Made by a program: the position numbers and the translations under genes
The notes under the pieces: generated by a model
Database searches by the model: none
The model's input: the letters and a program-made list of their open reading frames with translations, nothing else
What the model was told of the DNA's origin: nothing
Origin: a virus
Reading direction: 5' to 3' (one strand)
DNA: 30,482 nucleotides
IMG/VR virus record: IMGVR_UViG_3300010410_000128
Span: 1-30,482 of that record
Shown here: positions 932-28,989 of the stretch, in pieces
Layout: each line of letters opens with the position of its first letter
How positions within the stretch are numbered: the first letter of the stretch is position 1

Positions 932-3042
932 ACGTAGACGTCCTCCTGACAGCTAGAGAGTTTTCTGTTCTTGCTTCGATACGCCGGGATGAAGCCAGCA
1001 AGATTTTATCCAGAGCCGAAGCCGGAATAAATTGGCGCGGGACATCGTTGTCTATCCACTGGGAAGTCCGCGCGGGCGGGAAACAGCGGGTTGTGACGGT
1101 GAGTAGCCTGCCACCCGACCTGCAAATTGAGTGGGCGAAGAGGAATTTAAAACAAACCCTGCCGGACAACCCTCCGGAACTGTACACAGAACCGAGCGGA
1201 TCCCGAACCGCCCGTCAGGACAAAACCGGGAATCCTTTTGAAAAAGCCAAGAAGCCGCGCAAGCACACCGACACGGATGTTGAGCAGCTTGAGGCCGTCT
1301 GGGCCAAGAAGACGGAACGCCAGAAAAAGAAGGGGCTGCGCCGAGCGAAGTCGTTGTTTGCGGTTGAGAAGCTGCAGGCCGACGGGCTGACCAAGAGTGA
1401 TGCGGTAAAAGCGGTAGCCCAGCAGCAGCAGGTGACCGAGGCTTCGCTCTGGAACTGGTTTGGGAAGGTTTCCCTGTGGCCGCGCGACGCATGGCAGATG
1501 ATTTTAACCGACAACTACAGCGGAAAGCAGAAAAACGTCGAGATCAACGAAGAGGCGTGGGAATACATTCTGGCGGACTATCTTCGTCCGGAAGCACCAG
1601 CCCTTTCCGCCGTTTACGATCGCGCCGCCCAGCGATTTGATCTTCCGTCGGAAAAGACCGTGATGCGCCGGATCAATGAACTGCCGAGCACGGTCATTGT
1701 GCTGGCTCGTGAAGGGGTTGAGGCGCTGGCGCGGATGTATCCGCATCAGGAGCGCGATCATAGCTTTTATGGGGCGCTGGAAGCGGTCAATGCGGACGGC
1801 CATAAGTTTGATGTCTTTGTGCAGTGGCCGGATGGAGAGATCAACCGTCCGTTAATGGTTGGCTGGCAGGATGTTTTCAGCGGCAAAGTCCTTTCCTATG
1901 AAGTGACCAAGACGGAAAACACCGACACGATCCGCTGGGCGTTCGGAAAAATGGTTCGTGAATACGGCATCCCCGACGAAGCCTATTTAGACAACGGGCG
2001 CGGGTTTGCCAGCAAGTGGCTCACCGGTGGAGCCCCGACCCGCTACCGGTTCAAAATCAAAGAAGACGATCCGATGGGGATCCTGACTCAGATGGGCGTT
2101 AAAACCCGCTGGTGTCAGCCGTTTCACGGGCAGGCAAAACCGATCGAACGCGCCTGGAGAGATTTATGCTGCGAGCGGATTGCCAAACACCCGGCACTTG
2201 CCGGGGCCTACACCGGAAACAATCCGATGGCCAAGCCGGAAAACTACGGAAGCAAGGCCGTTCCGATCGCGCTTTTCATGGCAGTACTGGATGAGCAGGT
2301 GAAGCTTCACAACGCCCGCGAAGGCCGCCGCGCGAAGGTCTGCTCCGGACGCTCTTTTGATCAGGTTTTTGCAGAGAGCTACGAAGCCCGCAAAGCCGAC
2401 ATCCGCCGCCCAGGTGAAGAGACGCTGGCCTATCTTCTCATGCAGGCCGACACGGTCACCGTTTACAAAAACGGCAGCCACATCGCCTACAACAGCAACC
2501 GCTACTACAACGAAGCCCTCACCGAATACAGCGGAACCAAAGTGGCTGTGCGGTTTGATCCGGAACGGATGCACAGCGGCCTGCACGTTTACACGCTCGA
2601 CGGCCGCTTTATCTGCCACGCCGCCTGCGTGGCCGCCACCGGCTTCGGCGACACCGAAGCGGCACGCGAACACGCCCGCGCCAAGAATCAGTTTAAGAAG
2701 GCAGCCAAAGAACAGCTCAAGGCCGTCCGGAAGATGGATGCGCTGGAGGCGATCATTCCAAATGTCACAGGCAACAACGAAGGCACAACGATTGTCCGCA
2801 TCGACGGCAAGCCGGATCTCAGCCGCAAACCGGAAAGCGTCCAATCCTCGGAAGTTCCCGCGCAAGAAGCCGGAGCCATTTTTAGAAACAGAATTTCAGC
2901 AGCCATCCAGAAACCGAAAAGAGACCCCGCTCAACGGGATGATGAGTTCGATGAACTGGTAGCTGTTGGAATGCGCCGGACGGCCGGTGTTGCGCTTCGG
3001 CGCGACACCGAGCCGGATCCGGCAGACCTGTACTACAAATAA
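928..3042 (+). CDS. MuA-type DDE transposase
   Basis: 704 residues, slightly longer than Mu A (663). It catalyses strand transfer in replicative transposition and integration. The DDE triad is visible: D290 (AVNADGHKFDVF), D355 (AYLDNGRGF) and E407 (HGQAKPIERAWRDL), with spacing like that of MuA. The N-terminus (residues 1-75, TAREFSVLASIRRDEASKIL) matches the Mu-type DNA-binding domain that reads the internal enhancer. Residues 105-190 form a basic helical end-binding region. After the core comes the beta-barrel (about residues 510-580) and a basic helical C-terminus, which in MuA contacts MuB. The start overlaps the previous stop by four bases. The order repressor, ner, A, B is diagnostic of transposable phages. 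The recognition sites at the prophage ends are outside the window. Confidence 0.96.
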   Translation: MNVDVLLTAREFSVLASIRRDEASKILSRAEAGINWRGTSLSIHWEVRAGGKQRVVTVSSLPPDLQIEWAKRNLKQTLPDNPPELYTEPSGSRTARQDKTGNPFEKAKKPRKHTDTDVEQLEAVWAKKTERQKKKGLRRAKSLFAVEKLQADGLTKSDAVKAVAQQQQVTEASLWNWFGKVSLWPRDAWQMILTDNYSGKQKNVEINEEAWEYILADYLRPEAPALSAVYDRAAQRFDLPSEKTVMRRINELPSTVIVLAREGVEALARMYPHQERDHSFYGALEAVNADGHKFDVFVQWPDGEINRPLMVGWQDVFSGKVLSYEVTKTENTDTIRWAFGKMVREYGIPDEAYLDNGRGFASKWLTGGAPTRYRFKIKEDDPMGILTQMGVKTRWCQPFHGQAKPIERAWRDLCCERIAKHPALAGAYTGNNPMAKPENYGSKAVPIALFMAVLDEQVKLHNAREGRRAKVCSGRSFDQVFAESYEARKADIRRPGEETLAYLLMQADTVTVYKNGSHIAYNSNRYYNEALTEYSGTKVAVRFDPERMHSGLHVYTLDGRFICHAACVAATGFGDTEAAREHARAKNQFKKAAKEQLKAVRKMDALEAIIPNVTGNNEGTTIVRIDGKPDLSRKPESVQSSEVPAQEAGAIFRNRISAAIQKPKRDPAQRDDEFDELVAVGMRRTAGVALRRDTEPDPADLYYK

Positions 3043-3051
3043 GGAGGCACC

Positions 3052-3207
3052 ATGAGCGAACCCGTAATTAACGACATGACTACGCTGGGCGCAGAACTGC
3101 ATGACGATCTGCTCAAGCAGCGGAAGATCGCGGCATTTTTTGCCGTTGTCGCGCTGGCTGAAGGAATCCTGATCCTGTGCTTCGGCATCGGGCAGATGTT
3201 TTTTTAA
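3052..3207 (+). CDS. 51-residue single-pass membrane peptide
   Basis: A short reading frame with a strong Shine-Dalgarno (AAGGAGGCACC directly before the ATG) sits between transposase and MuB, ten bases after the transposase stop. The first half is acidic and polar (residues 1-24), followed by one hydrophobic helix (about 27-50, IAAFFAVVALAEGILILCF). The predicted topology is N-in or N-out with one membrane span and no C-terminal domain. No family recognised. The RBS quality, lack of overlap and membrane character support a real gene. Its position in the transposition operon is unusual, because Mu has no membrane protein between A and B. Confidence 0.65.
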   Translation: MSEPVINDMTTLGAELHDDLLKQRKIAAFFAVVALAEGILILCFGIGQMFF

Positions 3208-3213
3208 AACAAG

Positions 3214-3230
3214 GCAGGCTGGAAGCCTGC
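3214..3230. repeat. intergenic hairpin GCAGGCT-GGA-AGCCTGC
   Basis: Perfect 7-bp inverted repeat with a 3-base loop in the 58-base spacer before muB. There is no T-run after it, so it is not a classical terminator. It resembles other word-like spacer hairpins in this window. Confidence 0.7.
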
Positions 3231-3265
3231 GATACGAGACACCAACCAAGGGAGACACCATCACC

Positions 3266-4219
3266 ATGGGAACAAAATCAGAAAGACGCAAAGAGCTGCG
3301 CGAAATTATCAGCACGATGCTGAACAGCAGCGCGGTAGACCTCAGCCAGAACGAAATGAGCAAACGCATCGGGATCAGCCCGGCGGCACTCAGCACATGG
3401 CTGCAGGGCAAATACAAAGGCAGCGACACCGAGATCGAGCGCAAGATCGAACGCTGGCTCGAAAGCTACAACGCCGGCGAAGAATACACCCGCGAACTTC
3501 CTCCGGAACCGGAGTGGATCGAAACGCCGACGGCCCGTCGGATTTTCCAAACCTTGGAAACTGGACAGTTTCTCAAATCGTTGGTCATGGCCTACGGCGC
3601 GGCCGGTGCCGGCAAAACAAAGACCTGCGAATATTATGCGGCCACGCGGCCCAACGTCTGGCTCTTCACGCCCACTAAAGCTACGGCCAGTGCGCGCGGC
3701 CTACTTATGCTGATCTGCGACAAGCTGGGCATCAGCGATCCGGGATCCGGAAACTACGCCATCCAAAAAGCCATCATGCGCAAAGTCGCCGGCACGAACG
3801 GGCTCATCATCATTGATGAAGCCCAGCAGATCACGCTCGGCGCACTGGATCTCATGCGGCAGATGCAGGAACAGGCCGGAGTCGGCATGGCGCTGGTCGG
3901 GAATGAGCCGCTCTACACGCAGATGACCGGCGGATTTCGAGGCCCGAAATTCGCGCAGCTGTTCAGCCGCATCGCTCAGCGCACGCACATCGAAGGGACG
4001 CAGAGCGACGACGTGGAAACGCTGGCCGCCGCGCTGGGCATCACAGACCGCGACGCGGTCGCTTATCTGGTGCGCATCGGCACCTTGCCGGGCGGACTGC
4101 GCGGCGTGGCTAAGACGCTGCAGCTCGCCCAGCTGGCCGCCGCCGGATCCGGCGGGGAACTCAACAAGGCCATTATTGCACGGGCGTGGCGGAAGCTGAC
4201 GAATACGGAGGGCGAGTGA
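3266..4219 (+). CDS. MuB-type AAA+ ATPase, transposition target activator
   Basis: 317 residues (Mu B 312). MuB polymerises on DNA with ATP, selects target DNA and stimulates the transposase. Residues about 25-60 form an N-terminal HTH (LSQNEMSKRIGISPAALSTW) like that of MuB. Walker A is GAAGAGKTKT at 111-120, Walker B is LIIIDEAQQ at 180-188, and the sensor region GMALVGNE lies near 207-215. The C-terminal helical part (from about residue 255) corresponds to the DNA-binding domain of MuB. The RBS is GGGAGACACC, fifteen bases before the ATG through a short repeat of ATCACC. The stop overlaps the next start (TGATG). The codons near 3544-3560 contain one copy of the palindrome described in the findings. 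Confidence 0.95.
   Translation: MGTKSERRKELREIISTMLNSSAVDLSQNEMSKRIGISPAALSTWLQGKYKGSDTEIERKIERWLESYNAGEEYTRELPPEPEWIETPTARRIFQTLETGQFLKSLVMAYGAAGAGKTKTCEYYAATRPNVWLFTPTKATASARGLLMLICDKLGISDPGSGNYAIQKAIMRKVAGTNGLIIIDEAQQITLGALDLMRQMQEQAGVGMALVGNEPLYTQMTGGFRGPKFAQLFSRIAQRTHIEGTQSDDVETLAAALGITDRDAVAYLVRIGTLPGGLRGVAKTLQLAQLAAAGSGGELNKAIIARAWRKLTNTEGE
3544..3560. repeat. TTCCAA palindrome copy 1 (inside muB)
   Basis: TTTCCAA, spacer ACC, TTGGAAA: a perfect 7-bp inverted repeat. Read in the gene's frame as F-Q-T-L-E. Confidence 0.9.
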
Positions 4220-4440
4220 TGACCTGGAGAGACGCCATCGAGAAACAGCCGGGATCAACCTATACCGTGCTGGTCTGGGATGAAAAGCACGGCCACCAGC
4301 TGGCCAGCTATTCCAAGATCGGCAAGATGTGGATCCCGGAAAACCGGAAAATCAAAACGCTCGCCCCGACGCACTGGCAGCCGTTACCGAGTGCCCCGTC
4401 TGTTGAGGAAACCACTGAACTTGAGGATGCACAGTTATGA
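4219..4440 (+). CDS. DUF551-like small protein
   Basis: 73 residues. The pattern W..AIEK.PG..YTVLVWD....H.......G.MW followed by APTHWQPLP resembles DUF551, a small domain common in phage genomes, whose hallmark is a VLV strand and a C-terminal 'THWMPLP' motif. Molecular function is unknown. The ATG is shared with the muB stop (TGATG), so it is coupled to muB, and it in turn overlaps the next gene by four bases. An extended start at 4186 is possible but would lie inside muB. Confidence 0.75.
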   Translation: MTWRDAIEKQPGSTYTVLVWDEKHGHQLASYSKIGKMWIPENRKIKTLAPTHWQPLPSAPSVEETTELEDAQL

Positions 4441-4601
4441 CCTTTGACATTCACTTTGGGGACGGCACGACCGTCCGGGCGGAAGGCAAGAGCTTCCACT
4501 GCGCGTGCATCATCGCGCAGGCACAACGTGTGATGTACGACGAAACCAACGAACAGCAGCTGGCCGTTATTCGCGGGACGCTGATCAAAAAAGAAGGATA
4601 G
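4437..4601 (+). CDS. 54-residue middle-operon protein
   Basis: Short gene coupled by ATGA overlap to the DUF551-like gene and ending six bases before the Gam gene. The sequence begins with MTFDIHFGDGTTVRAEG, a beta hairpin-like start, followed by FHCACIIAQAQRVMYDETNEQ, an amphipathic helix with two cysteines. No family recognised. Support comes from its fit in the unbroken operon, with no gap on either side, and from codon use like its neighbours. Confidence 0.6.
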   Translation: MTFDIHFGDGTTVRAEGKSFHCACIIAQAQRVMYDETNEQQLAVIRGTLIKKEG

Positions 4602-4606
4602 GAATT

Positions 4607-5125
4607 ATGGCAACGAAGAGAGTGAAAAGTTCGGGATTCGAGACGCGCGGTGAGTTTGATGCTGCGCTGGATGATGTGGCGGCCATGAGTGTTAGTCTGC
4701 GCAAAATGGAGGCTGACCGCGATGAGGAACTGCAGGCCGTTCAGGAGGCCTATAACGACGACATCCTTGATGTGAAGAAGAAAATCAAGGGGCTGGTCGC
4801 GCAGGCAGAAAAGTATGCGCTATCGCACCGCGCTGAGGTTCTTCCGGTCGGTAAAAAATCCGGCGAAACCTCACTGGCCCTGTTTGGCTTCCGGACAGGC
4901 AATCCGACGCTGGCACTGCTGAATAAGAAGTGGACCTGGGAAGAGGTCATAAACGCACTCAAAACGATGTCGCTGACTGAGTTTATTGTGACGAAGCAGG
5001 CCGCCGATAAGGACGCGCTTAAAGCCAAGCTGACGGATTCGGAGTTGGCGGCCGTTGGGTGCCGGGTTGATCAGTCGGAGAGTTTCTGGGTTGAGCCGAA
5101 GCTCGAAGATGCAAAGACGTTTTAA
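4607..5125 (+). CDS. Gam-like host-nuclease inhibitor
   Basis: 172 residues, almost the length of Mu Gam (174). Mu Gam binds double-stranded DNA ends and blocks host exonucleases, and it is related to bacterial Ku. Residues 20-75 form the long charged coiled-coil helix (LRKMEADRDEELQAVQEAYN, then DVKKKIKGLVAQAEKYALSH). Then follow the typical GETSLALFGFRTGNPTLALL beta strands, the WTWEEVINALK helix and a C-terminal F.VEPKLED tail, all in Gam-family order. The ATG at 4607 is chosen because AAGGATAGGAATT precedes it; the longer frame from 4505 would overlap the preceding gene. It lies in the middle operon next to the GemA-like gene, as in Mu-type phages. Confidence 0.9.
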   Translation: MATKRVKSSGFETRGEFDAALDDVAAMSVSLRKMEADRDEELQAVQEAYNDDILDVKKKIKGLVAQAEKYALSHRAEVLPVGKKSGETSLALFGFRTGNPTLALLNKKWTWEEVINALKTMSLTEFIVTKQAADKDALKAKLTDSELAAVGCRVDQSESFWVEPKLEDAKTF

Positions 5126-7927: not shown

Positions 7928-8077
7928 ATGTGGCCTTTTAAAAAATTAAGGAAAAACGGATTGCGCTATTACCCACGGCACGGACGAACTCATGACCGAA
8001 AAATGCCGGGATATTTGCGCGGCGTGCGCAGGTTTTACCTCGCCCACCCCGAGCTGCGCAGAAAGGCGACTGCCTGA
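7928..8077 (+). CDS. 49-residue highly basic protein
   Basis: Short gene with a perfect Shine-Dalgarno context (AGGAGACACC directly before the ATG). Its stop overlaps the holin start (TGATGA). The product is strongly cationic and aromatic (MWPFKKLRKNGLRYYPRHGR, then GYLRGVRRFYLAHPELRRKA). No family recognised. The RBS and the coupling to the holin gene support expression. A role in lysis or nucleic-acid binding is only a guess. Confidence 0.62.
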   Translation: MWPFKKLRKNGLRYYPRHGRTHDRKMPGYLRGVRRFYLAHPELRRKATA

Positions 8078-8553
8078 TGAGCGTAACAGCCATTACTGCA
8101 ATCGTTGGACTATTTTCTCGGGCGTTTGAGCCGGTCACGAAACTGATCGATGACGAACGCTTTACCCCCGAAGAAAAGGCCAATCTGGCCAACACGCAAG
8201 TGCTGGCCGAATTGGCCAACGAACGGGCGGCACTGGAAATCGAAAAGCTGGAGTGGCAGGTGCAGGCGGAAACACAGAAGCGGTTGGCTGCTGAAGCCAA
8301 GGCCGAGGCCGATTCCCAGACCGCACTTGCGCGGATCCATGAGGCACAAACCGGCGAAGATGATTTATTCACCAAGCGCGTCCGGCCGTTTGCAGCCTAC
8401 GTCATGACCCTAATGCTGATTGCCGATCAGGTGTGGCACATGTTCGGAAAGGAACGCTTTTTTAATAACGCCATGATGATGGGTTATTTCTCGCTGCTGG
8501 GCATCTACATTGCCGGGCGGTCTTTTGAAAAATTCAAACGGATGAAGGGTTAA
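8077..8553 (+). CDS. holin of the three-TM family
   Basis: 158 residues. The first 25 residues form a short hydrophobic stretch (ITAIVGLFSRAFEPVTKLID). A long charged coiled coil follows (about 30-90, ANERAALEIEKLEWQVQAET). Then comes the signature 'RPFAAYVMTLMLIADQVWHM' membrane segment and a last membrane helix (MMGYFSLLGIYIAGRSFEKF). This arrangement matches the 3TM phage holin family (also found in gene transfer agents), which makes inner-membrane holes that release or activate the endolysin. It is flanked by a small basic protein and a spanin-like protein, which supports a lysis cassette. Confidence 0.82.
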   Translation: MSVTAITAIVGLFSRAFEPVTKLIDDERFTPEEKANLANTQVLAELANERAALEIEKLEWQVQAETQKRLAAEAKAEADSQTALARIHEAQTGEDDLFTKRVRPFAAYVMTLMLIADQVWHMFGKERFFNNAMMMGYFSLLGIYIAGRSFEKFKRMKG

Positions 8554-17587: not shown

Positions 17588-18016
17588 ATGGCGTATGCAA
17601 CTTTAGCGGATCTCGAAAGCCGGCTGACTCTTGCCCGGTTGCTGGTGATTGCCGGGCTGGACACCGACGACGACGGGATGAATGACGCCCCGGACGCGGT
17701 GCGAATCGGTGCGGCCCTGGCCGATGCCTCGGCCGAGGCTGACGTGCTGCTAAATTCCCGCTACGCCATGCCGCTGTCGACGATCCCGGCAATGCTGAAA
17801 AACGCCGTGTGCGATATCGCCGCCTATCTGCTCTGCAATGAGACGACGATCTCTGACTTTATTAAAGAGCGCCGAGATAATGCCGTGGTGCTGCTGAAGC
17901 GTGTGGGCGACGGCAAGGCCGATCTGGGAATCCCGGAGGCGCAGAAGCCGTCGGCCTCCGGAGGGGACGGGTATGTTGAAGAGGGGCGAACGGACTTCAA
18001 AAACTGGAATATGTAG
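17588..18016 (+). CDS. DUF1320 protein, Mu gp36-like (head-tail connector)
   Basis: 142 residues. It starts MAYATLADLESRLTLARLLV, as DUF1320 proteins do ('Y.t..dL.........l...'), followed by 'ALADASAEADVLLNSRYAMP' and 'LKNAVCDIAAYLLCNETTIS', then ERRDNAVVLLKRVGDGKADL and a flexible glycine/serine tail. These proteins are neck components that join portal and tail. RBS GAGGGGTAGAAA. It ends 16 bases before the first of the signal-peptide genes. Confidence 0.92.
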   Translation: MAYATLADLESRLTLARLLVIAGLDTDDDGMNDAPDAVRIGAALADASAEADVLLNSRYAMPLSTIPAMLKNAVCDIAAYLLCNETTISDFIKERRDNAVVLLKRVGDGKADLGIPEAQKPSASGGDGYVEEGRTDFKNWNM

Positions 18017-18032
18017 AACCAAGGAGAAAACG

Positions 18033-18536
18033 ATGAAAAAGATTGGACTGATTGGGTTGATGTTAATGGCGGCAATGGTGGCCTTCGGAGCTCCGCCGGT
18101 AGAGATGGCTGTTACAACCAACGCGATTAAGATTCTCCCGGAGAGAAATCTTGGGCGAGGCTACGGAACGGTCTGGTCCGCAACCAATACCGCAGCCCAG
18201 GGAGAGATCATCCGCTGGGGCACTGAGCAGTATATGGCCGAAAATGCCGGGACGCTGGGAACCAACGCGCCCACCCTGTCTGTATCCGGAACGGAAACCA
18301 ACGGGACGGTGATTCTGCGCTATGTGGAAAAAGGACCGCGCCTCGGGTTTGTGCTGATGCTCAACAGCGAGGGGTCCATCCGGGTGAATCTTAACAGTGC
18401 AGCCGTGACCGGCTCCGGCATCCAGCTCGAGGGGAAAAAGTCGATCTGGCAGGAAAGCGATCGGGGCGCACCACAAGGAGCCATTTGGGTTGTGAGTGAT
18501 TCCGGGACGAATAGCGTCGCGGCTCTTGAATGGTAA
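18033..18536 (+). CDS. secreted protein 1 of the signal-peptide cluster
   Basis: 167 residues. It has a clear Sec signal peptide (MKKIGLIGLMLMAAMVAFGA; cleavage likely after G19, with A at -3). The mature part is beta-rich and has many TN dipeptides (TTNAIKI, ATNTAAQ, GTNAPTL, SGTETNGT). The last 60 residues (GFVLMLNSEGSIRVNLNSAA, then SDSGTNSVAALEW) look like a small beta domain. No family recognised. The start at 18033 has AAGGAGAAAACG; the longer frame from 17901 would lie inside DUF1320. A signal peptide is unexpected in a virion operon of a dsDNA phage. The gene may encode an accessory fibre, or a surface protein produced by lysogens. Confidence 0.8.
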   Translation: MKKIGLIGLMLMAAMVAFGAPPVEMAVTTNAIKILPERNLGRGYGTVWSATNTAAQGEIIRWGTEQYMAENAGTLGTNAPTLSVSGTETNGTVILRYVEKGPRLGFVLMLNSEGSIRVNLNSAAVTGSGIQLEGKKSIWQESDRGAPQGAIWVVSDSGTNSVAALEW

Positions 18537-18571
18537 TGGCCGCAACGCGGCTGAACTATGAAAGATGAACT

Positions 18572-19843
18572 ATGAGATATGAAAAAGGTATTTTGATTTG
18601 CGTTTTGCTGGTTGCGGCCGCGCAGGCCGGAGTGATGACTTGGCCGGGTGAAACCGATCCGGTGGCCGGGCCGGTGATCGATGCGGTGATTGAAGGAACG
18701 CAACCGCTAGACAGCATCACGCTGGATCGGCCGATCAGCAGCTGGAATGAAATCGGCCTGACTTATATGGATGCCGTTCGGCTGAACAGCGCCGTGACGC
18801 GCACTAATGATGCGGTATGGACGGGCTGGGTTACCACCGGCGATCTGATGCCGGACAATACGATTTTTCTGACCGCCGGTGAAACGTTGGAAAGCCCGGT
18901 GCAGACCGGCGGCGTCGCCCGGTATGATGTGACCGCCTCTTCGGCCGGCGGCGCGACGGGATATTCGGCCGCAATTTTCGCAGGAACCAATCAACTGGCC
19001 GCACCTTATCAGGGATCGAATGGTGTTCTGCGTATTACCTGCGGAAGCACGCTTCCGGGACAGACGGCCGGACTGACCGTTCATGCTGTGCAGATCACCG
19101 GCTATTCCAACGCCGCCGAGGCGGAAGATCCAAAGACGGTATCCGGGCTGCGGGTGATTGAAGAGCCTGCGGATCCGGAGTCGGTCACGCCTAAGTGGTA
19201 TGTGGACGCACAGGCCGCATCTACGCGGGAGTATGGTGATGCCCGGTTGGCTGCCTACGGATCGGATACGCTTAAGGTGGTTTACGGCACACAGCTACGG
19301 CTCAATCGCAACTGGAATCAGATCTGGGCGGGCAACCGCTGGATTCTTTCGGCGGGTGAGGTTGCGGGCAACGGCACCCTCTCGGGTGTCGATGATGTGA
19401 TGACCTTTGCGGTGAATGATTACCCTCTCTTAGAGATTAAGCCCGAGGCGACTGGGGTTGCGGTTGAGAAGAATTTTGTGATTGTGCATTCGGGCAGCAA
19501 CGACGTGATTACCCTGAATGTGATTACCAACGGGGTGCATTCCGCCCCCTTCGCGGAATATGCCACCGACTTGCGAGCCGGGGCGTGGACGCGGGTGACG
19601 GATTACTTAACCAACAGCTACCCAGCGATGGTTGGAACGAACTATGTAATGCAGTTTTCTGTCCCAGCGGCATTGAGCGGTTTTGTGCGGGTGATGCAGC
19701 CAGATGGCGCAAGTGAAATGCGGGTGAAGGCGGATGAACTGGTGATGAATTCCGCGCCGATTACAGGGGCAAGTCTCGTGGTTTTTACCAATGGCTGGAG
19801 CATTCAGTGCACCACGAACGGGCTGGAGTTTGTCGGGCCGTAG
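18572..19843 (+). CDS. secreted protein 2, large beta-rich fibre-like protein
   Basis: 423 residues with signal peptide MRYEKGILICVLLVAAAQAG (cleavage likely after AQA, residue 19). The mature protein is beta-rich with low lysine content. A segment 'PKWYVDAQAASTREYGDARL' (near residue 207) recalls the 'T..YVD.A' joints in tail-fibre proteins. The end contains MQPDGASEMRVKADELVMNS and a repeat-like 'FTNGWSIQCTTNGLEF'. No enzyme motif seen. The spacer before it is a TGAACTATGA word repeat and the RBS is weak. Functional alternatives are a tail fibre, a lysogen surface adhesin or a phage-exclusion protein. The sequence alone does not decide. Confidence 0.75.
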   Translation: MRYEKGILICVLLVAAAQAGVMTWPGETDPVAGPVIDAVIEGTQPLDSITLDRPISSWNEIGLTYMDAVRLNSAVTRTNDAVWTGWVTTGDLMPDNTIFLTAGETLESPVQTGGVARYDVTASSAGGATGYSAAIFAGTNQLAAPYQGSNGVLRITCGSTLPGQTAGLTVHAVQITGYSNAAEAEDPKTVSGLRVIEEPADPESVTPKWYVDAQAASTREYGDARLAAYGSDTLKVVYGTQLRLNRNWNQIWAGNRWILSAGEVAGNGTLSGVDDVMTFAVNDYPLLEIKPEATGVAVEKNFVIVHSGSNDVITLNVITNGVHSAPFAEYATDLRAGAWTRVTDYLTNSYPAMVGTNYVMQFSVPAALSGFVRVMQPDGASEMRVKADELVMNSAPITGASLVVFTNGWSIQCTTNGLEFVGP

Positions 19844-19852
19844 CCCAGAAAG

Positions 19853-19884
19853 ATGAGGGATGAATTATGAAATATGAAAAAAGT
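19853..19884 (+). repeat. 32-bp exact leader repeat, copy 1
   Basis: Identical to 20892-20923. It covers the Shine-Dalgarno (GAGGG), the start codon and the first codons M-K-Y-E-K-S. A degenerate version lies at 18552-18586. Confidence 0.9.
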
Positions 19885-20406
19885 ATTTTACTGGTTGCGC
19901 TTCTGTCTGCAGCGACATTCGCTCAAGAGCGCGTGGAATTGACCATCGGTGTGGTAGCGAATCCTGACCGGATTGAATTCAGAGCACTGGAGTTTCACCC
20001 GGAGACCGTGGTGACAAACATCACTCGGGAATGGGAGACGGCGGTCGATATCCGCACGAACCTTTACTATGGCATGAATCCGGATGAGGTTGTCACCAAT
20101 ACGGTGCAGCAGCAGGTGACGGTTGCAACGGCCGTCACCAACGCCGCGTTCTGGACGGCACCGTTTGAGTACACCATCCCGGCCGGAGAGCCGATGCTGA
20201 TGGCCGGGGCGCTCGATGCGCGGCCGCGCCGGGCGGCGATCATGGATGTGCAATTGATTCTTACGCATGAACAGCTCAGCGCGATCCTCGGGCCGGAGTT
20301 CGCCGAACAGACGCGTGCGGCCGCCGAAGCGTTCGGCCCGCTACCGGTTAAAGGGGTGCTGGCGGATGCACTGCGTGCAGCCGTACTGCAGGCGATGCAG
20401 CCGTGA
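19867..20406 (+). CDS. secreted protein 3, MKYEKS leader
   Basis: 179 residues. Signal peptide MKYEKSILLVALLSAATFAQ (cleavage likely after TFA). The mature N-terminal half is beta-rich with several VVTN/VTN units (ETVVTNITREWE, DEVVTNTVQQQVTVATAVTN). The C-terminal half is helical (LTHEQLSAILGPEFAEQTRA, VLADALRAAVLQAMQP). No family recognised. It shares its leader and first codons with the gene at 20906, so the two are probably related by duplication of at least the expression signals. The end is close to the next gene (GTG at 20403 or ATG at 20415). Confidence 0.78.
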   Translation: MKYEKSILLVALLSAATFAQERVELTIGVVANPDRIEFRALEFHPETVVTNITREWETAVDIRTNLYYGMNPDEVVTNTVQQQVTVATAVTNAAFWTAPFEYTIPAGEPMLMAGALDARPRRAAIMDVQLILTHEQLSAILGPEFAEQTRAAAEAFGPLPVKGVLADALRAAVLQAMQP

Positions 20407-20414
20407 GGTGCGCA

Positions 20415-20888
20415 ATGACCCTGACAAAAAATCCACTTCGATGGCTGCTGTGTCTTGTTTTGCTGGTTCTCGCTTTATTTGCGGGTGCCAAGGCGCGAGG
20501 CGAGGTTGTGAATCAGGATTCGCTTTCCCGTAAGGGCGGCGAAATGCATGGATCGATCATGCGGGTTTATCCCGCCGGAGTGGATAACAGCATCGTGCAG
20601 CTTTTTTCGTACAGCGCAGATCTGCTGGCGACCAACGTCATTACCAACGAAACCCTGCGCGTACTGCGGATCTGGAATGATCATGGAAAGCCGCGCATCG
20701 ATCTGCGGCCGCAGGGACAGACAGGCCTTTCCGTACGCGTCAGTTCGGATGGTATCGAAAGCCGTATGCTGACGCTGCAGCCGCTGAGCAGCACACCTGC
20801 ACCCGTGGCGGGAGGTTTTTACCGGTCAGCCTCTGGAACATTTTATATCTGCCGGTCTGTAGAAACTGGATGGGAACTTTTGAACTGA
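20415..20888 (+). CDS. secreted or anchored tail-fibre-like protein 4
   Basis: 157 residues. The N-terminus is a signal peptide or anchor (LRWLLCLVLLVLALFAGAKA; cleavage possible after AKA, residue 27). Residues 37-47 are LSRKGGEMHGS, a close match to the 'L...GG.M.G.L' repeat that begins shaft segments in many phage tail fibres. The C-terminus 'PVAGGFYRSASGTFYICRSV' followed by WELL resembles the small tip domains of short fibres. ATG at 20415 is chosen because GAGGTGCGCA precedes it; a GTG at 20403 overlaps the previous stop. It is the best evidence that this cluster is related to virion fibres despite the export signals. Confidence 0.76.
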   Translation: MTLTKNPLRWLLCLVLLVLALFAGAKARGEVVNQDSLSRKGGEMHGSIMRVYPAGVDNSIVQLFSYSADLLATNVITNETLRVLRIWNDHGKPRIDLRPQGQTGLSVRVSSDGIESRMLTLQPLSSTPAPVAGGFYRSASGTFYICRSVETGWELLN

Positions 20889-20891
20889 AAA

Positions 20892-20923
20892 ATGAGGGAT
20901 GAATTATGAAATATGAAAAAAGT
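20892..20923 (+). repeat. 32-bp exact leader repeat, copy 2
   Basis: Identical to 19853-19884: RBS, start codon and first codons of the signal-peptide gene at 20906. Confidence 0.9.
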
Positions 20924-21547
20924 GTTTTTATTCTAATGTTAGCGATGGCCGCGATGGCCTTCGGTGAAGCGATTGTTTACAGCAAGATTGATGGGTCGAT
21001 TCTACGCACGGACTCTGAGCTGATTAAGTACACCGATAGCTACATCGGCGGAAAGACAGTGACCGAATACCCGAACTGGGACGTGATCGATATCGGTTAT
21101 GGCCGCAACCTGAAAACGGAGATCCCGCACGAAGAGATCAGCACGAACGATGTGGAGGTCTGCGATGAAGCAACCCGCGAGCCGATTCTCGATGAAACTG
21201 GGATTCCTGTTTTGCAGAGTATTGTTTCCACCAACTCGTGGACGGAAACGATCATCCACACCAACGTTGCACAGGTCTCTGACTTCGTGACGAAAGAGGT
21301 GTTTATAGACCGTTTAAAGAGTCCTGAACTAAAAGCGCTCGAGGTCGAGCTTTTCCAATGGTTGGAAACCAATGGTCTTGTGGGAAAAACCACCACAGCG
21401 CTTTCTTCCGGTACTGACGCGATGGTGATGATGTGGCTGCGCTCGCAAGCGGGTCAGCCGCAAGGCCTGCCCATGCTAATGCAGTATCTCGATTTGAAAA
21501 CCGGGATTGAAAGCCTCGGCGGCCGCATTGATAAGGCGAGGCGGTAG
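20906..21547 (+). CDS. secreted protein 5, MKYEKS leader
   Basis: 213 residues. Signal peptide MKYEKSVFILMLAMAAMAFG (cleavage likely after AFG). The mature part begins EAIVYSKIDGSILRTDSELI and has a beta-rich first half with TN units (ISTNDVEV, VSTNSWTE, IHTNVAQV). A helical C-terminal half follows (SPELKALEVELFQWLETNGL, MPMLMQYLD-like helix). No family recognised. Codons at 21352-21368 contain a TTCCAA palindrome (spacer TGG), read as F-Q-W-L-E. The stop is three bases from the rhomboid start, so the two are almost certainly co-translated. Confidence 0.78.
   Translation: MKYEKSVFILMLAMAAMAFGEAIVYSKIDGSILRTDSELIKYTDSYIGGKTVTEYPNWDVIDIGYGRNLKTEIPHEEISTNDVEVCDEATREPILDETGIPVLQSIVSTNSWTETIIHTNVAQVSDFVTKEVFIDRLKSPELKALEVELFQWLETNGLVGKTTTALSSGTDAMVMMWLRSQAGQPQGLPMLMQYLDLKTGIESLGGRIDKARR
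21352..21368. repeat. TTCCAA palindrome copy 5 (inside the gene at 20906)
   Basis: TTTCCAA, spacer TGG, TTGGAAA. Codon phase as in copies 1, 2 and 7. Confidence 0.9.
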
Positions 21548-21550
21548 AGC

Positions 21551-22129
21551 ATGACGCAAGGTGTAAAATACACACGGGCAGGCTGGATCTGCGCGACGGT
21601 TGTTATGGCGCTATTCGGATTGCAGCAGGTTTTCCCATTGCGCGAGCTGATGATGTTGAGCGGTCGTTCCGGATCGTCCGCAAAGGCCGTCCACACGCTG
21701 AGCTGCATGTTTGTACATGGAAACCTTCTGCACGCGGCGACGAATGCCCTGGCTTTTGTATGTTTATTTTTTGGGCTCCGGCGGGAACGTTCTGGAGCCG
21801 TCCTGTTATTCGGTTTTTTATCCGGCTGGATCTCCACCGCCCTGTTCGCCGCATTTTTGATGCCGCACAATGCAACGCTGGTTGGATCCAGCGGCATACT
21901 GTTTGGAATGCTGGGGTTCTTTACGGCCGATGAGCCATTTTCCAGATGGAGGCTTTGCGGGGTTGGTTCAATTCCTCTGATCGTGCTGGCTCCGGTACTG
22001 GTCGCCTTGGATGCCTTTTGGGCGGCATATATACCGCCCGTACATATTGCGTGGCCGGTTCACACCGTAGCGTTTTCGTTTGGAGTAATTATCGGGACGA
22101 TTAAATGGCCGGAACGTCAGTCAGTTTAA
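21551..22129 (+). CDS. rhomboid-family intramembrane serine protease
   Basis: 192 residues with about six hydrophobic helices, the bacterial rhomboid core size. Helix 2 holds H56-GNLLH61-AATN65, the spacing of the conserved H....H...N of GlpG. Helix 4 has the catalytic motif G112-S-S114-G (VGSSGILFGMLGFF), with S114 as nucleophile. Helix 6 has H171 in PVHTVAFSFGVIIG, the expected catalytic histidine, followed by the small-residue pattern A174 and G178. Rhomboids cleave membrane-anchored or signal-peptide-like segments within the bilayer. The gene starts three bases after a signal-peptide gene and overlaps the tail gene gpG by 25 bases, so it is integral to the late operon. I know of no such gene in Mu. 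Its substrate is unknown; the upstream exported proteins are candidates. Confidence 0.88.
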   Translation: MTQGVKYTRAGWICATVVMALFGLQQVFPLRELMMLSGRSGSSAKAVHTLSCMFVHGNLLHAATNALAFVCLFFGLRRERSGAVLLFGFLSGWISTALFAAFLMPHNATLVGSSGILFGMLGFFTADEPFSRWRLCGVGSIPLIVLAPVLVALDAFWAAYIPPVHIAWPVHTVAFSFGVIIGTIKWPERQSV

Positions 22130-22557
22130 ATCCTGTGGGGCTTGACCGGGTCGAGCAGCTGGTGACCCGGCTGCTGAATCCGGATTTTAATCCACTACTG
22201 GATGCGATCGGCGGGCTGGTGGTGAGCCAGACGGAGACGCGGATTACTCAAACAAAGACCGCTCCGGATGGAACGGCTTGGCCGGCGCTGAGCCCCAACT
22301 ATGCTAAGCACAAGAAAAAGGGCGGAGGGATTCTGGAGTTAGAGGGCGATCTGCGCGATTCGCTGGTTCATCTGGTGACGGGCGCAGCGACACTCGAGGT
22401 TGGCTCGAATTTAATTTATGCGGCAACGCATCAGTTCGGTGATATGGAGAAACGTAAAATTCCTGCGCGAACTTACCTTGGGCTGAGTGCCGAAGACGAA
22501 CAGCAGATTAATGGTTTACTGGATGAGTGGTGGAGCCAGCAGCTTTCAGCTGCATAA
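22105..22557 (+). CDS. virion morphogenesis / tail completion protein, Mu gpG / P2 gpS-like
   Basis: 150 residues. Typical sequence parts are 'RITQTKTAPDGTAWPALSPN' (the conserved R......PDG..W..L), 'KKGGGILELEGDLRDSLVHL' and 'VGSNLIYAATHQFGD', with the C-terminal 'KIPARTYLGLSAEDEQQING'. This is the Phage_tail_S family, which terminates or stabilises the tail and connects it to the head. The ATG lies within the last codons of the rhomboid gene. Confidence 0.93.
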   Translation: MAGTSVSLNPVGLDRVEQLVTRLLNPDFNPLLDAIGGLVVSQTETRITQTKTAPDGTAWPALSPNYAKHKKKGGGILELEGDLRDSLVHLVTGAATLEVGSNLIYAATHQFGDMEKRKIPARTYLGLSAEDEQQINGLLDEWWSQQLSAA

Positions 22558-22568
22558 CGGAGAATCCT

Positions 22569-23138
22569 ATGGCCTTGGAAAAAATGAAGACGGCGCAGAC
22601 GCTGGACCGCTGGGTGGATATTTTTGGGAAAGCGTTTAAAGGCGTGACGGTCGATATTCATTCCGGCCGCTTTGATGCGGATGAGTTGCAGCGACTGAGT
22701 GTAAAGGTTCCGGCGATTTTCGTCGCGGTGCTTTCTGCACTTCCCGGCGTAGATACCGGCGACAGCACGCTGCAGGGCGACACCGTATTCTCGGCCTACA
22801 TCCTGACAGGCGGCCAGCAGCGCGATGTGCAAGGTTGGAATATGCAGGAGGCCGTACGCGTTCTGCTGCACAATACCGTCTCGAACATTCCCGGAGTGGC
22901 CAAACCGAAGCAGATTACCTGGGCAAACATTCTTTCAACTAAAACCACCGGCAAGCAGATTGCGCTGAACGCGGTCGCGTGGCGGCAGAACATTCTGATC
23001 GGCGAACAAAGCACCGACGCGGAGATGTTCACCGGCGGAACTGTCTGGCCGGATAATGTGGTTCCGGAGAATCTTTACCTTGATGACGGATCCGGCGAGC
23101 AGCAGCCGGGCGATCCGAACCATCCGCCCGCTGAATAG
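22569..23138 (+). CDS. DUF1834 protein, Mu gp37-like
   Basis: 189 residues. The start ALEKMKTAQTLDRWVDIFGK and the middle 'LQRLSVKVPAIFVAVLSALP', 'FSAYILTGGQQRDVQGWNMQ' and IALNAVAWRQNILIG follow the DUF1834/gp37 pattern, a neck-tail interface protein. The flexible end is rich in G, P and E. ATG at 22569 has CGGAGAATCCT upstream. In Mu, gp36 and gp37 are neighbours; here the gp36-like gene is about 4.5 kb upstream with the fibre-like cluster and gpG between them. Confidence 0.85.
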   Translation: MALEKMKTAQTLDRWVDIFGKAFKGVTVDIHSGRFDADELQRLSVKVPAIFVAVLSALPGVDTGDSTLQGDTVFSAYILTGGQQRDVQGWNMQEAVRVLLHNTVSNIPGVAKPKQITWANILSTKTTGKQIALNAVAWRQNILIGEQSTDAEMFTGGTVWPDNVVPENLYLDDGSGEQQPGDPNHPPAE

Positions 23139-28387: not shown

Positions 28388-28795
28388 ATGGCAGATTCAA
28401 TTTTATTGGCACTGAGTCAGGGGAAAACACAGTTCGTGTTTTCGGTTCTCGGGACAGCTTACGATCAGCTGCAACGCTCCAGCGCCTGGCGCTGGGCGAA
28501 GATGCCGCGCGTCGGACGCTTGCCTGCCCGACAAAGCCTCGGCCCGGACGATGACACCATCGAACTGCAGGGGACAATCATTACGGAACGCAGCGGATAT
28601 GGCAGCCTGACTGATCTGCGCACTCTGATGGCTAGCGGAGAGCCGGTTCTGCTTTGTGACAGCCTAGGGAACATCCACGGCAAGTGGTGCATGGAGTCAT
28701 TGCAGGAAACCCAGACCGCGATTCATGTCGACGGCCTTCCGCGCAAGCAAACGTTTCTGCTGCGCCTTTCAGTTTATGGGGAGGATGCGGCATGA
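28388..28795 (+). CDS. tail terminator/baseplate protein U, P2 gpU-like
   Basis: 135 residues. The start MADSILLALSQGKTQFVFSV followed by 'AYDQLQRSSAWRWAKMPRVG' matches P2 gpU ('F.F......Y..L.R...WRW......GR.PA.Q..G...'), then ARQSLGPDDDTIELQGTI, LRTLMASGEPVLLCDSLGNI and 'HGKWCMESLQETQT'. Start 28388 (ATG) is used; TTG at 28373 would overlap the tape measure stop. It precedes gpX and gpD with one small membrane gene between. Confidence 0.92.
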   Translation: MADSILLALSQGKTQFVFSVLGTAYDQLQRSSAWRWAKMPRVGRLPARQSLGPDDDTIELQGTIITERSGYGSLTDLRTLMASGEPVLLCDSLGNIHGKWCMESLQETQTAIHVDGLPRKQTFLLRLSVYGEDAA

Positions 28796-28989
28796 ATATT
28801 GTGCTTTTGATTATTGAAATTTATCTGCTGATCGGGCTGGTGACCGCGCTGGTGATCGCCCGGCGATCGGCTCAGGAGCCGTGTCCGCTGCCGTGGCGGT
28901 GGAGCGCCGAAATACTCTGTTATGCGGCGGTAGTTATTTTCTACTGGCCGTGGCTTCTCGTTCTTTGGATCCAAGGATGGATTGAATAA
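28792..28989 (+). CDS. small two-span membrane protein in the tail operon
   Basis: 65 residues. Two hydrophobic helices: residues 1-22 (MNIVLLIIEIYLLIGLVTAL) and about 38-60 (AEILCYAAVVIFYWPWLLVL), separated by a short basic loop (RRSAQEPCPLPWRW). It overlaps gpU by ATGA at the start, and its last base is the first base of gpX's ATG. Its family is unknown. A membrane protein between gpU and gpX is not part of P2 or Mu. It might help release or be a superinfection exclusion factor, but there is no direct evidence. Confidence 0.75.
   Translation: MNIVLLIIEIYLLIGLVTALVIARRSAQEPCPLPWRWSAEILCYAAVVIFYWPWLLVLWIQGWIE

Follow-up and report, generated by a model that had tools for sequence, protein, structure and literature searches.

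Introduction

Few substrates are known for prokaryotic rhomboids; classical rhomboid substrates carry a type-I or C-terminal transmembrane segment and usually lie N-out/C-in. E. coli GlpG and other PF01694 rhomboids share with the phage protein described here an HxxxxHxxxN motif in TM2, a GxSG motif in TM4 and, less certainly, a conserved TM6 histidine and about six hydrophobic helices. In rhombosortases (TIGR03902), the signature around the active serine is SGMLH and the gene tends to adjoin that of a lone target (PMC3237569). Rhomboids have also been annotated in the Stenotrophomonas phages DLP3 and DLP5, in the latter among the moron genes (PMC7326821, PMC5834331), and in phage Summit. The "rhomboid membrane protein" of these three phages, like ours phage-encoded, has 175 residues with H45/H50/N54, S101 (active site GASAG) and H149, and its gene lies in an accessory region near sugar-modifying genes rather than in the structural operon. 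A literature search that covered few subscription journals returned no tailed-phage rhomboids beyond the DLP phage reports, and a 2025 review of the rhomboid superfamily mentions neither phages nor viruses (PMC12615303).

Here we analyse a putative rhomboid gene in the late operon of a Mu-like virus. The stretch of DNA under study (the window) comes from IMG/VR, where it forms a virus record 30,482 bases long. Phage rhomboids are already known, but the setting of this one, in a structural operon and within a cassette of exported genes, differs from that in DLP3, DLP5 and Summit, whose protein has no detectable similarity to ours by tblastn. The statement of the initial annotation that rhomboids are not a known part of Mu or P2 fits the Mu-like contigs that we examined; for phages at large, these three provide a precedent.

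Results

A diverged rhomboid-family gene in a late operon

The gene is as follows.

21551..22129, + strand: putative rhomboid-family intramembrane serine protease, 192 aa, ATG start (PF01694 match, catalytic residues invariant in four genomes, purifying selection)

It begins three bases past the upstream gene, which stops at 21547, and overlaps by 25 bases gpG, whose ATG is at 22105, both as first described. The product matches PF01694 with 52.1 bits (E=1e-13; Pfam cut-off 22.6), and orthologues in three other viral contigs, with 79% (L001), 61% (L003) and 57% (L004) identity to the window protein by local alignment, also score above this cut-off (36.6–42.1 bits). PHROG 16931, a family of unknown function, has matches to the window protein (E=4.5e-6) and to two of its three orthologues (4.8e-7 and 0.004; none for L004), together with a weak one to GlpG (0.042), so that it probably represents rhomboids of phages. 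Profile and active-site core both place the protein in the rhomboid family, as a diverged member. No rhomboid relative was detectable in the deposited phages and plasmids searched, no rhomboid turned up when the sequences of solved structures were searched, and two scans of genome collections found no host genome.

The best NCBIfam model for the protein is that of the rhombosortases (TIGR03902, 40.4 bits against a cut-off of 84), which are of similar size and suggest by analogy a rhomboid specialised for exported proteins. Rhombosortase identity is nevertheless ruled out. The four phage proteins score 28.4–40.4 bits, below both the cut-off and the GlpG control (52.7); they read SGILF, SGIIY, SGMVF and SGIIF where rhombosortases have SGMLH; and the cassette proteins, the phage part that was searched, lack the tripartite GlyGly-CTERM tag of a C-terminal transmembrane segment and basic tail.

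Catalytic residues and the register of TM6

The residues named in the initial annotation (H56....H61...N65, G112-S-S114-G and H171..A174...G178) are all present in the translation. H56/H61/N65 fall on GlpG H145/H150/N154 in every alignment, and G112/S114 fall on G199/S201 by all methods. H56, H61, N65, G112, S114, G115 and H171 are invariant in all four rhomboids (pairwise identity 51–77%), a sample of four genomes with common cassette ancestry. The catalytic residues are thus kept in the homologues rather than lost. For the pairs that allowed an estimate of dS, dN/dS is about 0.19–0.41, with dS near saturation for the distant pairs. Because the catalytic residues are invariant and these ratios are low, the comparison of orthologues shows a real, selected rhomboid gene with an intact TM2/TM4 catalytic core. 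In this core, S114 is the probable nucleophile, and H61 and N65 are the predicted oxyanion-hole residues.

The claim of a complete rhomboid signature holds for TM2 and TM4 and goes a little too far elsewhere. Relative to GlpG, the phage protein has no N-terminal domain; V47/H48 (V/L-H) stand opposite W136/R137, so that the L1 WR motif is absent; and TM6 reads VHxx(A/S)xxxG instead of AHxxGxxxG. The WR motif is common but not universal in rhomboids, DLP3 having WQ. Alignment with GlpG, which places S114 on S201 throughout, places H171 on H254 only by Pfam end-point arithmetic and hhalign, whereas MAFFT (three modes) and a 7-sequence HMM put F175 there. When positions are counted backwards from the Pfam match ends, which presumes no indel after this point, model position 126 falls on H171, its equivalents in the three orthologues, GlpG H254 and DLP3 H149. 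An AWPVH block, invariant in four of four, has A/S at +3 and G at +7 behind it and is thereby similar to IANTAHLSGAIVG in a rhomboid from Neochlamydia, and for this reason we favour H171 as the TM6 histidine. It is the probable catalytic partner of S114, although the alignment methods disagree.

Structure prediction gave an AlphaFold2 model, built from four homologues only, with a pLDDT of 46.6 and helices in the expected places. Together with four strong hydropathy segments this agrees with a putative six-helix protein as initially described, but the model is too weak to show the Ser–His geometry sought for S114 and H171. A Foldseek search of this low-confidence model against the PDB listed no rhomboid among the matches shown.

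An insert of exported genes between gp36 and gpG

In the standard Mu-like late operon gp36 is directly followed by gpG, an order that the window departs from. The two genes are separated by 4089 bases in the window and by 2.3–4.8 kb (2306–4795) in its lineage; in the remaining Mu-like contigs for which both genes were found, their spacing is −12 to +9 bases. The initial annotation placed the rhomboid inside the virion operon; this is literally true, but the gene lies in an accessory insert outside the virion backbone. The features of the insert are the following.

17588..18016, + strand: Mu gp36-like head-tail adaptor, left insert boundary (PF07030 E=8.8e-27, phrog_195)
18033..18536, + strand: exported protein, first cassette gene; family profile matches a cyanophage tailspike receptor-binding domain
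18553..18594, + strand: 42-nt leader repeat, copy 1, 83% to the reference copy
18572..19843, + strand: fibre-like exported protein of 423 aa with a signal peptide; absent in L004
19848..19889, + strand: 42-nt leader repeat, copy 2, reference copy
19867..20406, + strand: exported protein, signal peptide MKYEKSILLVALLSAATFA-QE; missing from L004, which has the rhomboid
20403..20888, + strand: exported protein, signal peptide; present in the four rhomboid-bearing genomes
20887..20928, + strand: 42-nt leader repeat, copy 3, 95% to the reference copy
20906..21547, + strand: exported protein, 213 aa, signal peptide MKYEKSVFILMLAMAAMA-FG; rhomboid partner gene, directly upstream in all four genomes
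22105..22557, + strand: gpG, virion morphogenesis/tail completion, right insert boundary (PF05069 E=2.4e-27, phrog_26)

Five genes of the insert start with signal peptides, which were called by a simple rule and inspection, and such genes occupy the same interval in L001, L003, L004, L006, L007, L011, L015, L020 and L021. The rule combined with a ribosome-binding site picks out 14 of 666 genes (2%) in 27 other Mu-like contigs. The ends of the signal peptides are of the ordinary signal-peptidase kind, and their entry is N-in; this wrong orientation and the ordinary cleavage sites do not favour them as rhomboid substrates. Transmembrane segments, whether internal or C-terminal, are absent from all cassette proteins.

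The profile of the first exported family (alignment A5) matches PDB 7eea (E=8.9e-6 over 73 residues), and its L015 member matches tail-fibre/virion PHROGs. For the gene at 20403..20888, ATG 20415 is a likelier start than GTG 20403, and its product has no relative in L011 or L015. The model of the 20906–21547 product (pLDDT 55), with a beta-rich middle and a helical C-terminus, gave no identification; among deposited phages neither this protein nor the 18572–19843 product has a relative.

The gp36–gpG gap (18016–22105 in the window; also in L011, L015, L020 and L021) is a hypervariable insertion site for exported adhesin-like genes in the lineage. The L011 insert encodes a protein with weak YadA-head repeats and, in one cassette, two divergent paralogues of the first exported family (2546–3046 and 4217–4720), to whose divergent type L020:4686–5171 is related; that of L015 has genes for large exported proteins (399 and about 650 aa).

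The 42-nt leader comprises the upstream region, ribosome-binding site, start codon and first signal-peptide codons, and stands before three exported genes that are otherwise unrelated. Several of the L001 leaders instead have MRRIG-type starts in common. The leaders look as though they were copied within a genome, and as a consequence the signal peptides would diverge while most mature proteins stay 80–90% identical.

Two other genes of the window deserve comment. The product of 22527–23138 is gp37-like, yet PHROG 490 labels it "portal" (E=4e-13), at odds with its position after gpG and with the upstream terminase and portal genes. That of 8077–8553 has a weak match to PF11351, a family of three-helix holins (24.9 bits against a cut-off of 24.8); a holin-like gene therefore probably lies before the terminase.

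The rhomboid travels with one exported protein

Among all fetched contigs, several of them incomplete, profiles of the rhomboid and of the 20906–21547 product match exactly the same four genomes (the window, L001, L003 and L004). The two genes adjoin in each, with a spacing of −4 to +3 bases, close enough for translational coupling, and the signal peptide of the partner is retained in the four orthologues though its letters diverge. These patterns show the rhomboid to be inherited as a pair with this exported protein, and the search among relatives that was initially proposed thus found the rhomboid kept next to a signal-peptide gene. The rhomboid evolves faster than its partner (dN 0.37–0.46 versus 0.11–0.20 for the distant pairs). 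The contigs L011, L015, L020 and L021 have neither gene, yet carry other exported genes at the locus, and a PF01694 search of these four, including contigs of 34.5 and 37.5 kb, found no rhomboid anywhere. The absence from otherwise identical prophages that was initially named as a refutation was thus found in part.

Between the window and L004 the sheath is 89% and the tube 83% identical, but the rhomboid only 53%. Between the window and L001 the relation is reversed, with 87% for 18572, 89% for 20906 and 77% for the rhomboid, but 43% for gpG and 53% for the sheath. The break between the two histories falls at the rhomboid/gpG boundary. Because these histories differ, the rhomboid belongs to the cassette and not to the virion backbone, and the gene-by-gene identities show the cassette, with the rhomboid at its end, to be a horizontally exchanged unit that moved between two virion backbones. 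L004 lacks the 18572 and 19867 genes and retains 20906 and the rhomboid.

Tail fibres of the lineage begin with signal peptides

In six of six readable records of the lineage or its close relatives, the tail-fibre gene begins with a signal peptide right after the ribosome-binding site.

L017:19794-20342 (the contig of L004), signal-peptide tail-fibre gene
L020:19634-20269, signal-peptide tail-fibre gene
L021:19388-19951, signal-peptide tail-fibre gene
L022:9708-10103, signal-peptide tail-fibre gene
L186:3001-3579, signal-peptide tail-fibre gene
L189:3001-3687, signal-peptide tail-fibre gene

The window ends before its own tail-fibre region. The signal peptide is followed by a shared mature start of the LPKTQAKQV type, and the C-terminal domains vary; for L017 and L021 the product has a match to the Gp53-like tail-fibre C-terminal domain. 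Fibre export is thus a lineage trait, independent of the rhomboid. Signal peptides are unexpected on the tail fibres of a tailed phage, and more surprising than the rhomboid; our literature search, which covered few subscription journals, found nothing on them.

Discussion

Based on the above data, we propose that the rhomboid is an accessory inner-membrane protease serving the exported proteins of its cassette, a reading that we hold with a probability of about 40% and in which proteolytic activity is predicted. The protein would be produced alongside the cassette products late in infection and would act as an inner-membrane serine protease, with S114 as nucleophile and H171 as the likely catalytic histidine. 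Its likeliest target would be a membrane-associated form of a cassette protein, that of 20906–21547 before the others, or a host membrane protein that hinders export, and cleavage would release the exported proteins or clear them from the inner membrane. As the cassette proteins lack transmembrane segments of the type-I or C-terminal kind, the rhomboid may cut a form stalled in the membrane, a different membrane protein of the phage or a protein of the host. The 18572 and 19867 products cannot be necessary substrates, because L004 keeps the rhomboid in their absence. Against this model, relatives export similar proteins without a rhomboid. The link to exported fibre-like proteins that was initially suggested is thus strengthened by strict co-occurrence and adjacency with 20906; a general role in their maturation is not required, because transmembrane segments are lacking and exported genes exist without the rhomboid.

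The same mobility and absence from close relatives would suit a moron gene that merely shares the cassette and whose product cleaves a protein of the host inner membrane or envelope, for instance to block superinfection or to alter the lysogen surface. The neighbouring proteins look like surface adhesins, and DLP3 and DLP5 carry a rhomboid, counted among the morons in DLP5. We consider this possible but unlikely, as the gene sits in a late structural operon and its strict pairing with one exported phage protein suggests a phage-encoded partner. That pairing, maintained across two backbones, also speaks against an active rhomboid of bacterial origin carried along with the cassette to no specific phage end, as do the retained catalytic core and a dN/dS below 1 across highly diverged copies; such a passenger, which the sporadic distribution and the faster evolution relative to 20906 would allow, seems to us improbable.

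If the F175 register of MAFFT and the 7-sequence HMM were correct, the TM6 histidine would be off the catalytic position, and the protein might instead be a membrane chaperone or quality-control factor for exported proteins, in line with the missing L1 WR and first TM6 glycine. Known pseudorhomboids, however, usually lose GxSG and HxxxxHxxxN, both of which are intact here, and the invariant AWPVH block together with the registers of Pfam and hhalign makes loss of activity rather more doubtful still. A contribution to lysis, by weakening the inner membrane or activating a holin or endolysin, is very improbable: the late operon position and other membrane proteins in the window (8077–8553 and 28684–28989) are compatible with it, but the holin-like gene lies in another module and relatives persist without the rhomboid.

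Our preferred reading of a protease serving the cassette can be extended to the lineage. We suggest, quite tentatively and as a rather unlikely proposition in its full form, that these Mu-like phages export fibres or adhesins through the host Sec pathway and complete or display them outside the cytoplasm, with exchangeable adhesin cassettes, some of which have recruited a rhomboid that processes the 20906–21547 product. Should the gene prove to be no more than a moron, it would still be an example of a rhomboid encoded within a phage structural operon, and the gp36–gpG interval would still be a site of cassette exchange. Its genetic tie to a single exported phage protein provides a small candidate enzyme–substrate pair. 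That a rhomboid travels with fibre-like export genes suggests the use, by some phages, of a protease of their own on surface proteins outside the cytoplasm, and, should the exported products become part of the virion or the cell surface, this would represent an unrecognised extracytoplasmic step in tailed-phage assembly.
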